From: Bacillus pumilus
GTDB lineage: Bacteria > Bacillota > Bacilli > Bacillales > Bacillaceae
NCBI RefSeq assembly: GCF_024498355.1
Contig: NZ_CP101833.1
Span: 3,267,001 to 3,331,000, forward strand
DNA: 64,000 bases
Reading direction: 5' to 3'
Shown here: positions 5,458 to 10,180 of the stretch, in pieces
Layout: the number at the start of each line of letters is the position of its first letter
Numbering within the stretch: the first letter of the stretch is position 1
Position numbers and translations under genes: made by a program
The notes under the pieces: generated by a model
The model's database searches: none
What the model saw: only the letters and a program-made list of their open reading frames with translations
What the model was told of the DNA's origin: nothing

Positions 5458-5961
5458 TTACATTACAGTGACTATTTCTTTTCCTAAGGAAATTAAAGCA
5501 TCAATAATAAATGGTGCTGCAAAGAGAATCGATGCTTTCCAGTTCGCTTTTTTGTACTGAAAAAAGATCAAAATGAGAATCGATCCTATAAGGGCTGTGA
5601 AGATGTACATCCATAAGCTATGTACTTGCAAAATCCCCATACATATCACATTAACAAACATAATGAGAATCTTAGGAATCAGAGCATAAAACAAATGACT
5701 CTTAACCTCAGGAGCAAAGATCATTAATAAGAATTTACCGATTAGATACTGTACTAAGAGACTGATTGTGGTTAGGGTTGTGGTAATGACAACAATTAGA
5801 TTCAGCATCGTATCATAGGAAATATCCTCTAACAAAGCTCGCAAATCACCTAGTTTTGAAATGTAGCCATTCAATTCAATAGCAAAAGTGACAAAATAAT
5901 AATTGGCAAGAATAAAAATGACCAACGATATCAGTGATGTTATTCTTGGACGTTGTTCCAT
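5458..5961 (-). CDS. Small integral membrane protein, likely bacteriocin immunity or export
   Basis: This 167-residue protein is almost entirely hydrophobic with about four to five membrane segments (roughly 9-30, 55-80, 88-112, 116-135, 143-163). It is the last gene of the bacteriocin operon and overlaps the ATPase gene by 22 bases, with a GGGAGG site placed inside that gene. Its layout resembles Yip1-like proteins found last in some circular-bacteriocin clusters. Self-immunity, alone or with the ABC pair, is inferred from position; no catalytic motif is visible. Confidence 0.75.
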   Translation of the reverse strand: MEQRPRITSLISLVIFILANYYFVTFAIELNGYISKLGDLRALLEDISYDTMLNLIVVITTTLTTISLLVQYLIGKFLLMIFAPEVKSHLFYALIPKILIMFVNVICMGILQVHSLWMYIFTALIGSILILIFFQYKKANWKASILFAAPFIIDALISLGKEIVTVM

Positions 5962-6554
5962 AATAGCCTCCCATCCCCTATACTCATAATGCTTGAATGA
6001 TCGTTTAAGCGTTTATTTACCATGCTATGGGAAACATATATGATGGTTGCTATATTTTTAATAGAAAGATTCACTAACCTTTCAGATAGCATATCTATAC
6101 TTTCTGAATCTAGAGATGACATGGTTTCATCAATTAGTATGGTTTCCCAATCTTTTACGAATACTAAAGATAACCCTACCTTCGCTTTCATACCCGTGGA
6201 TGCTCTGCTATACGAATCATCTAGTTTACCATCAAAAAAATCATTCACATTGCACATTTGTTCTTCGGTGGGTGTAATCTTAAACGTATTCCACAGAATC
6301 TCTAGATTCTCTCTAATTGTAAATGGATGAATACCAATAGGATCCACATTTAAATAAAGAGTCGATTTATTGTTTGTCTCAATACCTCCAGAGTATCTCT
6401 TATCTAAACCAGCTATCATTTTAAGGAGAGTGCTTTTACCCGCACCATTTCGCCCTACTAAATGAAAGAGACCTGATGGAATTGAAAAATTCACTTTATC
6501 TAGTATCATAGTGTTCTTGAAATTCTTCGTACATTCTACAAATTCTAATCCCAT
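5940..6554 (-). CDS. ABC transporter ATP-binding protein of the bacteriocin operon
   Basis: This 204-residue single ATPase domain has a Walker A GRNGAGKST (about 34-42), a Walker B ending TILIDE, and a weak signature around SRASTGMKAKVGL in place of canonical LSGGQ. It would pair with the adjacent membrane proteins to export the circular peptide or remove it from the membrane, as in circularin, carnocyclin and amylocyclicin clusters. It is shorter than many such ATPases because the C-terminal extension is absent. ABC identity is firm; the exact role is inferred from context. Confidence 0.9.
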   Translation of the reverse strand: MGLEFVECTKNFKNTMILDKVNFSIPSGLFHLVGRNGAGKSTLLKMIAGLDKRYSGGIETNNKSTLYLNVDPIGIHPFTIRENLEILWNTFKITPTEEQMCNVNDFFDGKLDDSYSRASTGMKAKVGLSLVFVKDWETILIDETMSSLDSESIDMLSERLVNLSIKNIATIIYVSHSMVNKRLNDHSSIMSIGDGRLLWNNVQE

Positions 6555-6582: not shown

Positions 6583-6695
6583 CTTCAATAAAACCAGCTA
6601 TTATTGATAAAGATAGAAAATAATAAGGAATCATACCCTTCAATAAAAGCAGCTATTATTAGGATCGTTAACGATAGCAGATAATAAGGAATCAT
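6583..6695 (-). repeat. Imperfect 52/58-bp tandem duplication at the 3' end of the SpoIIM-like gene
   Basis: Segments 6583-6634 and 6638-6695 both begin CTTCAATAAAA and end AATAAGGAATCAT on the plus strand. They differ by a few substitutions and a 6-base indel. Equivalent points are 55 to 61 bases apart, so the second copy is read one frame off and gives the protein a new C-terminus. Confidence 0.85.
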
Positions 6696-7115
6696 TTTTT
6701 TCATGACACCTAAAGCAGCTTTAATTGATTTCGTATAAATTAATGTAAAAAGCACATACTGGCTTATGCCTTGATACAGCAACATATTTGGAAATTCTAA
6801 TAACCCATGAGGAATTAGTTTATCCAAAGCTTCTTGTGCTCCTAGCGTTCTAAAACCCATTGTAATGACGAAGGACGAACCTCCAAAATCCATTATTTGA
6901 AATAACGGTGACAATAAGAATCCCAGTAAATACATTGCAAAGTTTGTTAAGTTATGCGTCAGAACTACAGACATAAAATCCTGGCCCGAAGTTGGCGGTG
7001 CTGCTTCAAATAAATCTTTGTTGACTATGTTCCCAAGATAAATCCCTGTACCTATCAGTAAGATACAGTAGATAGAATAGTACCACAGAAAATATTTCAA
7101 TCTTTTATGTATCAT
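6585..7115 (-). CDS. SpoIIM/DUF95-family membrane protein of the bacteriocin operon
   Basis: The 176-residue protein has four or five membrane helices and the family-like LIPHGLLEFPNML stretch (near 100-112). DUF95 proteins are a near-constant part of circular-bacteriocin loci and are linked to export and immunity. The coding end runs through a tandem duplication, so the last 17 or so residues (from IEGYDSLL to the stop) are the start of the repeat read out of frame. The undisturbed frame would continue IAGFIEDSILQ. Whether this changes function cannot be told. SD and spacing are normal and the gene follows the large membrane protein by 13 bases. Confidence 0.85.
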   Translation of the reverse strand: MIHKRLKYFLWYYSIYCILLIGTGIYLGNIVNKDLFEAAPPTSGQDFMSVVLTHNLTNFAMYLLGFLLSPLFQIMDFGGSSFVITMGFRTLGAQEALDKLIPHGLLEFPNMLLYQGISQYVLFTLIYTKSIKAALGVMKKMIPYYLLSLTILIIAAFIEGYDSLLFSIFINNSWFY

Positions 7116-7128
7116 TTTCCTCCTCTTT

Positions 7129-8262
7129 TCATGAAGTAATAGTGAAAATTGTAATGCATATGAGTAACAAAATAGGCAAGGATAGCTTCAGCAACTTATG
7201 TTCATAATCGCTGATTAATAGTTCTGTTTTTCTGAAATATACGACCCCAATAAAGATGATTAAAGGAAGCGATAACGTATTTTTAAGAATGATTGAGATA
7301 TCGGACGTGTTTATCATCACTCCGACTATTCCACACACGCTTACAAAAATCAGCACAAGACATAGTAAATAAATCGTACTGGATTTAAACCTTTCGTACG
7401 GACTTACGATCAAAGAGGATTGTAATGTCTCGACTCTTGCCTTATCAAGAACGATCTCTTCCTTTTTCGAACCTATTAAGATTTCTAATATCGTTATAAA
7501 ATTTATATAGACTAGAATGAGCGCAGGCAGGTTTTCTACTTTCGTTAAAAAGGATTGGGCGAAATAAGTAAGCACTGATACTAAGGCGCCTATTAAGACC
7601 ATTAATATTTTATTACTAGTGGTATAAGACAAAAATAGATACAGAATATTTCCAGACCTATATTTCCTTTTAGCACTTTTTAGAAAGGAAAGTCCAGTTG
7701 TCAAAGGTATCCTATGCGAATTACTTATGTAAATGTAAATAAGAAGGGACTGTACTATTTGCAGTATCATAACTGCTTCAAAAATGGACGTTATCATATA
7801 CCAAAATTGCAACAAAAGGAATATTCTGTTTATGATATTGAATAGACCAGACAACAATTGAGATGCAAACGAAAGCATTACGACCACAAGAGCTAATATC
7901 ATAATGAAATATTGATTTTCTACTAACAAAAAGGTTAGAGCGATGAAACAAGTAAGAAGTAATTGAACTGCATACCCTTTTTTAATCGTAAAGAATAAAT
8001 GTTTCAACAACAATTGTTTAGAGATAAAGACCAAGCCTGGCTGCTGTCTTCTATACGGTAATACACAACGATTAATATTAGCTGTAGCTACAATGTATAT
8101 TGAAATAAAAATAAAGCTGTTTAGGTAAGTGCTGGGAATCCCATCGCGATAGAAAATCACCGCTACCATAACAATGAAAGAAAAAAGAATCAACCCAATA
8201 TAATTGAGATACCCCATTATACTTTGATCATATATTTTAAATAGCTTATTTAATTTATGCAT
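7129..8262 (-). CDS. Large membrane protein of the bacteriocin operon (candidate maturation/export component)
   Basis: This 377-residue protein has around ten predicted membrane segments and no soluble domain. Its position directly after the precursor genes matches the large hydrophobic protein (CirB/BacB-like) required for production in circular-bacteriocin clusters, suspected in leader removal, ring closure or transport. Its ATG at 8262 lies eight bases after the stop of the miniature precursor and lacks a clear SD of its own, so translation may be coupled to that small gene. The function is not proven for any family member I can recall. Confidence 0.78.
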   Translation of the reverse strand: MHKLNKLFKIYDQSIMGYLNYIGLILFSFIVMVAVIFYRDGIPSTYLNSFIFISIYIVATANINRCVLPYRRQQPGLVFISKQLLLKHLFFTIKKGYAVQLLLTCFIALTFLLVENQYFIMILALVVVMLSFASQLLSGLFNIINRIFLLLQFWYMITSIFEAVMILQIVQSLLIYIYISNSHRIPLTTGLSFLKSAKRKYRSGNILYLFLSYTTSNKILMVLIGALVSVLTYFAQSFLTKVENLPALILVYINFITILEILIGSKKEEIVLDKARVETLQSSLIVSPYERFKSSTIYLLCLVLIFVSVCGIVGVMINTSDISIILKNTLSLPLIIFIGVVYFRKTELLISDYEHKLLKLSLPILLLICITIFTITS

Positions 8263-8270
8263 AAGTCATT

Positions 8271-8450
8271 TTAAAAAGCAGCAGCCTTGGCTTTTCCTTG
8301 TTTTTTAAGTACAGCCAAAATTGCAGCAGCCCCAGTACTAACACCAAGATTCGCTGCTATCAAAGAACCATTTCTTCCAACTACTAAAGATGCCATTGTA
8401 ACTACAAATAACAATAGTGAGAATAAGCCAAGATTTTTTGCTTTTATCAT
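8271..8450 (-). CDS. Miniature circular-bacteriocin precursor paralogue (59 aa)
   Basis: This short frame has a strong AGGAGG site seven bases before its ATG. The 59-residue product has a hydrophobic leader (1-29), then LIAANLGVSTG joined directly to AAAILAVLKKQGKAKAAAF. Compared with the full precursor at 8611-8901, it keeps the leader type, the presumed first mature residues and the last 19 residues, but exactly 35 internal residues are missing in frame. The predicted core is 30 residues against 65. It lies after the operon's internal terminator and next to the large membrane protein. It could make a small circular peptide, act as a decoy or maturation substrate, serve translational coupling, or be a decaying duplicate. 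Confidence 0.8.
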   Translation of the reverse strand: MIKAKNLGLFSLLLFVVTMASLVVGRNGSLIAANLGVSTGAAAILAVLKKQGKAKAAAF

Positions 8451-8566
8451 AAATTTACCTCCTAATTAATGTTTTATTACAAGCCACAATGGGCATAAAA
8501 CGTTAAATTAGTTTTTAAGTCACTGTCTATTGAACGCCGTTTCACCTGATATCAATACACTTTTGG

Positions 8567-8606
8567 AAAAAAAATCATCTCAATAAAGATTGAGATGATT
8601 TTTTTC
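8567..8606 (-). terminator. Internal terminator after the main precursor gene
   Basis: Thirteen-base perfect arms (8572-8584 and 8589-8601) with a 4-base loop are followed on the minus strand by at least eight T. Placed right after the structural gene, it would let the precursor mRNA greatly exceed the downstream operon mRNA, a common bacteriocin arrangement. Confidence 0.9.
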
Positions 8607-8964: not shown

Positions 8965-9991
8965 CATTTTTTGTAAAATATGTAATATTAATTTAAATAG
9001 AGGTATTTATAACCAACTATTATCAGGGATTAAGTTCATTTTCCATTTTTACAGGGCACTTATGTAATGGCATAAAATGCTCTGATTCTCTAAAAGCTAG
9101 TCAAAATTTCTAATAAACACTATCAAAAAATCAATTCGTTTCATATTTTTATTGACCTGTCTTAGAGGTAGGTAACTTTTTTATCATGACTTAAAAGATG
9201 ATGGCATTTATATTTATAGGTATGATAAGCTACCTTTATCCTTGAAGTTATTACATCTTTACTAAAGGCAGAGCTAAATTCAATGAATAGCTTTCTCTCA
9301 TTCTATTCTCTGTAAACTTATTTTGAATTCAAGAGAATTGATGAATTGAATTGGCAGTACATCATACACTTGAATCTTATAAAGACAAGAACCTTATCAT
9401 TTATTAAAATGCTAATAACCTGATCGAACATGTCAGTATCTTTATACATCGCAGTTCCTATGACATCCTTTGAAAAATTGTAATGTATTAGAAAATTCAA
9501 TAAACTTACTATTCTTCAAAACCCAATATAAGCCCCTGTATACCGATGATAAAAAAGACTTAAATGGGTGGAATCAACTACTTAAAATAAACCAATTTCT
9601 CGATTTCAAAAAAATCGAAACACTCATATTGAGCTGTCTCGACTTCGGTTGATAATAGAATAAATGTACTTAATTAAAGGCTTTATTTTCGAAGGTGTTA
9701 TTCGTATTATTTTTGACTGTTTTGTATTAAACATCTCACTGGTCATCTCTGCAATTTCTTTAAATCAAGATATTCGGACAAATAAAATCTTTTCTTCATT
9801 TATGTAGTTTGAATAATATTCATCATTTATTTACTAATGATTAATTTTATATATATCTCAAGCATTGAGATTTGCTTTAATTATGTGATGTCTAAGAGAT
9901 GATTGCCTCAGTTTTACTTAAAATATATAATCTGCTTAAAAATTAATTGATGAAAACTTTATAGCTATACACTTTTATACTCTATCTTAAT
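8965..9991. other. About 1 kb AT-rich stretch without a recognisable gene
   Basis: Only short broken frames are present on either strand. Stretches on the plus strand (about 9300-9655, for example a 60-codon frame ending at 9652) read like residual coding sequence interrupted by stops, which would fit a lost regulator gene, but I see no family. No tRNA, repeat array or clear promoter is visible apart from a small inverted AGGTA/TACCT near 9217-9234. Confidence 0.4.
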
Positions 9992-10180
9992 CTAAAGTTT
10001 CTGAAATAATGAGATTACTACAGCTATGGTCAATACAATTCCCGCAAACATTAATACAATTAATTTTCTATTACTGTTTTCTTTTTGATCATTGTCTTTT
10101 TTTGAAGTCTTCGAAAGTTCTACGGATACCAGAATCCATATAACCATGGTTACGATTCCTAAGGTGGTAGCAGCGTTCAT
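9992..10180 (-). CDS. Small two-helix membrane protein
   Basis: This 62-residue protein has one membrane segment at 3-20, a highly charged linker (KTSKKDNDQKENSNRK) and a second at 41-59. A good GGGAGG site lies seven bases before the ATG. I do not recognise a family. Size and topology resemble small immunity proteins, and it sits in the same island as the bacteriocin operon, but about 1.1 kb from the precursor and outside the operon. A role in immunity is only a possibility. Confidence 0.6.
   Translation of the reverse strand: MNAATTLGIVTMVIWILVSVELSKTSKKDNDQKENSNRKLIVLMFAGIVLTIAVVISLFQKL

Follow-up and report, generated by a model that had tools for sequence, protein, structure and literature searches.

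A shortened copy of a circular-bacteriocin precursor gene in the Bacillus pumilus group as a probable ribosome-delivering open reading frame

Translational coupling is a known property of the gene clusters that encode circular bacteriocins. It was assigned to 109 of 119 clusters in one survey, which also lists clusters with several structural genes (PMC7132975), and multiple copies of the structural gene have been noted elsewhere as well (PMC8659200). In B. safensis APC 4157, a full precursor gene is accompanied by a second gene of ‘unknown function’ encoding a 69-aa form (PMC11381294, published in 2024), for which the accessible text of that report gives no mass. Two different bacteriocins, altitudin A and safencin E, come from this species group (PMC10888436, PMC7617318), and the precursor of flexusin A from B. 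flexus differs from the Priestia flexa plasmid precursor compared here (PMC11943950). The concept of a short open reading frame (ORF) that only delivers a ribosome has also been put forward (PMC12548453). Work on E. coli and Haloferax treated a spacing between −8 and +10 nt as predictive of restart, for which the final 15 nt of the gene upstream proved sufficient; restart drops steeply with distance, and pairs near +10 nt usually have a Shine-Dalgarno site of their own (PMC10666635).

The 64,000-nucleotide stretch of Bacillus pumilus DNA analyzed here (the window) contains a cluster in which a full-length precursor gene is followed by a miniature precursor ORF, hereafter the mini, and then by a gene that we call cirB-like, a label given by position; the Pfam search gives its 377-aa product no family (Table 1). 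The B. safensis APC 4157 cluster resembles that of the window: its full precursor is similar, and its 69-aa gene is almost the same as the form found in one of our comparison genomes, G021. Unlike the reading proposed here, its published account, in the text accessible to us, invokes no coupling role, decay or cross-species comparison (PMC11381294). Other clusters have genes that depend on the ribosome binding site of the gene upstream, as is proposed here for the mini/cirB-like pair, although coupling is given there per cluster and a decayed precursor as upstream partner is unmentioned in the available part of the survey (PMC7132975). Tandem precursor genes also occur in clusters with several structural genes (PMC7132975, PMC8659200) and in G164, an outgroup genome described below, but those copies are structural genes of high identity, whereas the mini is internally deleted. 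The ribosome-delivering short ORFs of PMC12548453 share with the mini a strong Shine-Dalgarno site, a short gap and a downstream gene devoid of a site; unlike them, the mini descends from a toxin precursor gene, itself duplicated next door. The axe-txe minigenes are small ORFs that act in cis on a downstream gene, as the mini is proposed to do, with distance mattering over length, but they are two-codon ORFs and not gene remnants (PMC8708949).

Table 1. Genes and elements of the circular-bacteriocin cluster, with positions in the window.
Feature	Position	Strand	Remarks
Full-length circular-bacteriocin precursor, 96 aa	8611..8901	-	PF09221 and TIGR03651 matches above cut-off
Inverted repeat with A and T runs at its flanks	8567..8605	-	Between full and mini genes; read as a possible terminator
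Mini leader: AT-rich inverted repeat CTAATTTAACGTTTTAT ... ATAAAACATTAATTAG (8462-8511), then AGGAGG (8463-8458)	8458..8511	-	
Mini precursor ORF, 59 aa; proposed ribosome-delivering ORF	8271..8450	-	Open in 6/6 intact operons
Proposed coupling junction: mini TAA, 8 nt, cirB-like ATG	8260..8273	-	Same spacing in 6/6
cirB-like membrane protein, 377 aa; presumed maturation protein	7129..8262	-	Conserved next gene in compared operons
SpoIIM/DUF95-type protein of the cluster	6585..7115	-	PF01944, E 1.4e-8
ABC transporter ATPase of the cluster	5940..6554	-	PF00005, E 3.8e-14
Small membrane protein, cluster end	5458..5961	-	No Pfam family; syntenic in six operons

The full-length precursor matched PF09221 (E 1e-17, 64.5 bits against a cut-off of 23.6) and TIGR03651 (E 1.8e-15, above cut-off), and this family match, with SpoIIM and ABC genes close by, places it in the uberolysin family. 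By comparison it divides into a 31-aa leader and a 65-aa core, and its Shine-Dalgarno duplex reaches −13.8 kcal/mol. The inverted repeat that follows it is nearly invariant in the six intact operons described below (mean pairwise difference 0.037) and may, as a reading rather than a tool call, be a terminator that separates the full gene from the mini; a scan for consensus terminators reported one terminator-like site elsewhere (9155-9173) and did not list the repeat. Upstream of the precursor, a 62-aa membrane-protein-like ORF (9992-10180, minus strand) also precedes the precursor in G018, G021, G022, G034, G148 and the P. flexa plasmid, where it starts with TTG, and its counterparts in G001 and G041 have a longer predicted start. 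It may be part of the cluster, perhaps with an immunity role.

Both ORFs agree with the initial annotation, and the strong AGGAGG site and uninterrupted frame that it reported for the mini were confirmed. Its end-to-end alignment of the two products is borne out by 41 identities among 58 aligned residues, except that the leaders lack collinearity, that of the mini having three residues missing and one extra. Similarly, the claim that exactly 35 residues are missing is true of the core, where the deletion is in frame, the total length difference being 37. With the mini protein as query, the full copy of the same genome scores E 5.5e-7; this match, the grouping of the minis in one clade and the fact that 15 of 17 protein matches are of mini type indicate that the likeness is not due to chance. 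Against the family models, however, the mini scores 14.2 bits for PF09221 (cut-off 23.6) and 13 bits for TIGR03651 (cut-off 30.7), and its core of 30 residues falls outside the approximately 58-70 residues of uberolysin-family circular bacteriocins. The Leu and Phe presumed to be joined are retained in the window genome but lost in several relatives. The core begins with Lys in P0009, with Phe in P0011 and with Met in P0040, and it ends in Cys in P0014, G001 and G041; hydrophobic ring ends are found in the window genome and are not conserved across the mini family.

A protein search with the mini returned 17 matches, 15 of which are of mini type (P0001-P0015, 48-91 aa) and two of a differently deleted form (P0016 and P0017). 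One further mini, P0040, came from a search with the full precursor, bringing these proteins to 18; the homologues carry the names of B. pumilus, B. safensis and B. altitudinis. The frame is altered in three of the 18 (P0002, P0013 and P0015): the endings of P0002 and P0013 are the residues expected of the +3-nt TGA, and P0015 has an early stop. P0013 read from the mini start would probably not work. Among 44 same-genus genomes, seven contain a cirB-like gene, in an intact operon in six and in a broken one in G034. Absence of the gene or random stop codons in close relatives had been named as the mark of a decaying duplicate, yet an open mini directly precedes cirB-like in all six intact operons (59 aa in G000 and G018, 69 in G021, 58 in G022, 55 in G001 and G041), with internal deletions that differ among them. 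The G021 mini lacks the stretch from LIAANLGVS through Trp-Ser and retains the middle part lost in the other minis; this segment, which may be either ancestral or regained, shows 11 differences in 66 nt from the full copy of the same genome.

In G034, a deletion has left the full precursor running into the mini end as a single 81-aa ORF, behind which the cirB-like gene is broken. The compared stretch of this genome is identical to that of B. stratosphericus KcN0-8 (L036; also L065), and the 81-aa fusion product, P0028, carries the name circular bacteriocin in a public source. In wider draws of genomes, which overlap, cirB-like was found in three of 398 genomes of the class (own genome included) and six of 397 of the order, and a weak fragment was met in G363. 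The full precursor matched 14 of 397 genomes drawn from the order. The genome contig search returned one locus, a broken operon, and the plasmid search one record; 42 stretches of viral contigs fit a pattern, none of them related to the full precursor.

The mini and the cirB-like gene differ sharply in their ribosome-binding sites. Shine-Dalgarno duplexes at the mini range from −10.2 to −11.6 kcal/mol in the six operons, whereas those at cirB-like amount to −0.3, −0.3, −0.3, −1.6, −3.4 and −3.4 kcal/mol against a background of random 17-mers with a median of −2.4, a 25th percentile of −4.5 and a 5th percentile of −8.0. All other starts scored in these operons lie between −8.3 and −14.2 kcal/mol (that of the upstream 62-aa ORF being scored in four of the six), which leaves cirB-like as the only one without a site. 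The mini stop falls 8 nt before the cirB-like ATG in every operon, and the pair thus combines a short gap with a site on the upstream ORF and none on the downstream one, as in coupled gene pairs. In four of the six operons, each of the three frames meets a stop no more than 8 nt from this ATG; in G001 and G041, one frame continues and overlaps cirB-like by 17 nt. The cirB-like start itself is supported by a conserved KLFKxYDxS-like segment that precedes the next Met. RNA structure at this start was no better than in shuffled sequences (z −0.07). A stable hairpin before the mini Shine-Dalgarno site was considered and rejected: the sequence is conserved, but z is 0.04 against shuffles. G041 has changes in the left arm of this inverted repeat, which could be an mRNA stabilizer or a DNA site. 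A promoter scan for a separate mini transcript gave 16 consensus sites against a shuffle mean of 13.2, an uninformative difference.

Four operons served as outgroups, in G148, G164, the P. flexa plasmid and G453; of the 14 precursor-matching genomes, G148 and G164 are the ones outside the pumilus group whose junctions were inspected. The gene that ends just ahead of cirB-like is a full-length precursor in G148, G164 and the P. flexa plasmid, at distances of 5, 5 and 7 nt, respectively, and the corresponding cirB-like duplexes of −5.0, 0.4 and 0.2 kcal/mol include no strong site, the G148 value, between the 5th and 25th percentiles of random 17-mers, being weak rather than absent. Since the precursor occupies the cirB-like junction in these three outgroups, coupling to the precursor looks ancestral. 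G164 (L058) has two full-length tandem precursors with identical cores and different leaders, the second of which lies at the junction, and a cirB-like frame that is broken in the draft; its tandem layout would be the kind of intermediate expected. In G453, cirB-like lies away from the precursor and has a strong site of its own (−14.6 kcal/mol), a single and distant case at 31% identity. On the P. flexa plasmid (L056 5299-5338), the annotated cirB-like start is 39 nt downstream of the ATG abutting the precursor stop, a placement that may reflect the lack of a Shine-Dalgarno site at that ATG.

In a tree of 16 precursor and mini sequences, the six minis form one clade with support of 100/98, pointing to one duplication older than the split of the six genomes, which bears out the initial description of the mini as an aged copy of the precursor. 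The duplication appears, from the same comparison, to have followed the split from the P. flexa line. Gene conversion between the copies was rejected as a general picture, the minis being one clade. Over the six genomes, pN/pS is 0.75 for the mini (bootstrap 0.53-1.13) and 0.28 for the full copy (0.27 when confined to codons still present in the mini), with 0.18 for cirB-like, 0.12 for SpoIIM, 0.20 for ABC and 0.18 for the small membrane protein. Judged by these ratios, the mini peptide is weakly constrained. When G021 is set aside, the leader stands at 1.16 (0.64-3.01) and the core at 0.55 (0.30-1.09), and a hand calculation gives about 0.37 for the last 12 codons; these lower values suggest that some protein constraint may remain, perhaps near the mini end. 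The frame and the start region are better kept. About five length changes in the mini ORF all preserve the frame, whereas none of eight spacer indels is a multiple of three (Fisher p 0.0008, on small numbers counted by eye and on a codon-based ORF alignment that forces gaps to threes, so that net frame alone is observed). In a crude neutral simulation, 4.4% of runs ended with all six ORFs stop-free, and on average 3.0 of the six were broken. The mini leader region at 8458..8511 has a mean pairwise difference of about 0.10, versus 0.345 in the spacer before it.

We propose that the mini is probably a precursor copy that decayed and was retained for translational coupling, as a means of bringing ribosomes to cirB-like. 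The ancestral layout would have been a precursor with cirB-like coupled to it. After duplication of the precursor, the upstream copy, followed by the terminator-like repeat, would have gone on to make the active bacteriocin, while the copy on the junction side, now the mini, would have lost its product and stayed as the ribosome entry for cirB-like. Ribosomes would load at the mini Shine-Dalgarno site, translate the ORF, stop at its TAA and, after 8 nt, start again on cirB-like, whose translation would depend on the mini as an upstream ORF delivering ribosomes. We also lean, by a smaller margin of confidence, toward the broader view that a precursor gene here became a pure translation device, the duplicated precursor with its terminator being dosed separately and the maturation gene keeping its coupled start. 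Counting against the coupling reading are the altered frames in three of the 18 proteins, the possible residual constraint and the crudeness of the neutral simulation. In addition, restart at +8 nt without a site may be weak, given the steep fall with distance and the sites usual near +10 nt.

The mini peptide could instead have a job of its own, such as occupying maturation or export proteins or protecting the producer by means of its leader and basic tail. This would fit the retention of the ORF in all six operons, the hydrophobic leader and KKQGKAKAAAF-like tail present in most relatives, and the pN/pS of the core, but the interval of the overall ratio includes 1, the leader evolves at a ratio above 1, the hydrophobic stretch of the leader is interrupted by charged residues in P0012 and P0009, and G021 has retained a different part of the core. 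We consider such a job unlikely. A decoy role of the peptide, raised in the initial annotation, found no support, and the regulatory role suggested with it is right in the cis sense, that of the act of translating the ORF; the evidence does not point to the peptide. A little less likely still is a functionless, decaying duplicate that is open by chance. A pN/pS near 1, the altered frames among the database proteins and the loss of the G034 mini by fusion with the full copy, though in an operon itself broken, all speak for decay. It is at odds with six open frames in six intact operons, with a Shine-Dalgarno site that is strong and conserved together with its leader, and with length changes that are in frame on balance in the ORF and never so in the spacer; moreover, it would leave cirB-like without visible ribosome entry.

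The remaining alternative, a second circular bacteriocin of 30 residues as the initial annotation had envisaged, strikes us as very improbable. A leader is present and Leu and Phe stand at the presumed ends in the window genome, but the ring-junction residues and the core vary among relatives, which makes such a ring unlikely. Confirmed circular bacteriocins span 58-70 residues in the table rows available from PMC7132975, and enterocin NKR-5-3B is cited in PMC10888436 as failing to mature when L1 is replaced by a non-hydrophobic residue. One of the two gene products of the B. safensis cluster gave no circular model (PMC11381294); we take it to be the 69-aa form from the table of that report, whose text and table number the genes oppositely.

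Coupling in such clusters being already known, what would be new in the reading that we favor, a mini kept as ribosome entry for cirB-like, is the descent of a ribosome-delivering ORF from a toxin precursor. A search of mainly open-access literature brought up no account of a decayed precursor that is retained for coupling. If true, this reading would provide a traceable case in which a gene loses its product yet keeps its role as a launch site for ribosomes, and it would explain the second gene of ‘unknown function’ in B. safensis (PMC11381294). Genome mining may also list such remnants as bacteriocins, as illustrated by the 69-aa P0016, which is named ‘uberolysin/carnocyclin family circular bacteriocin’.
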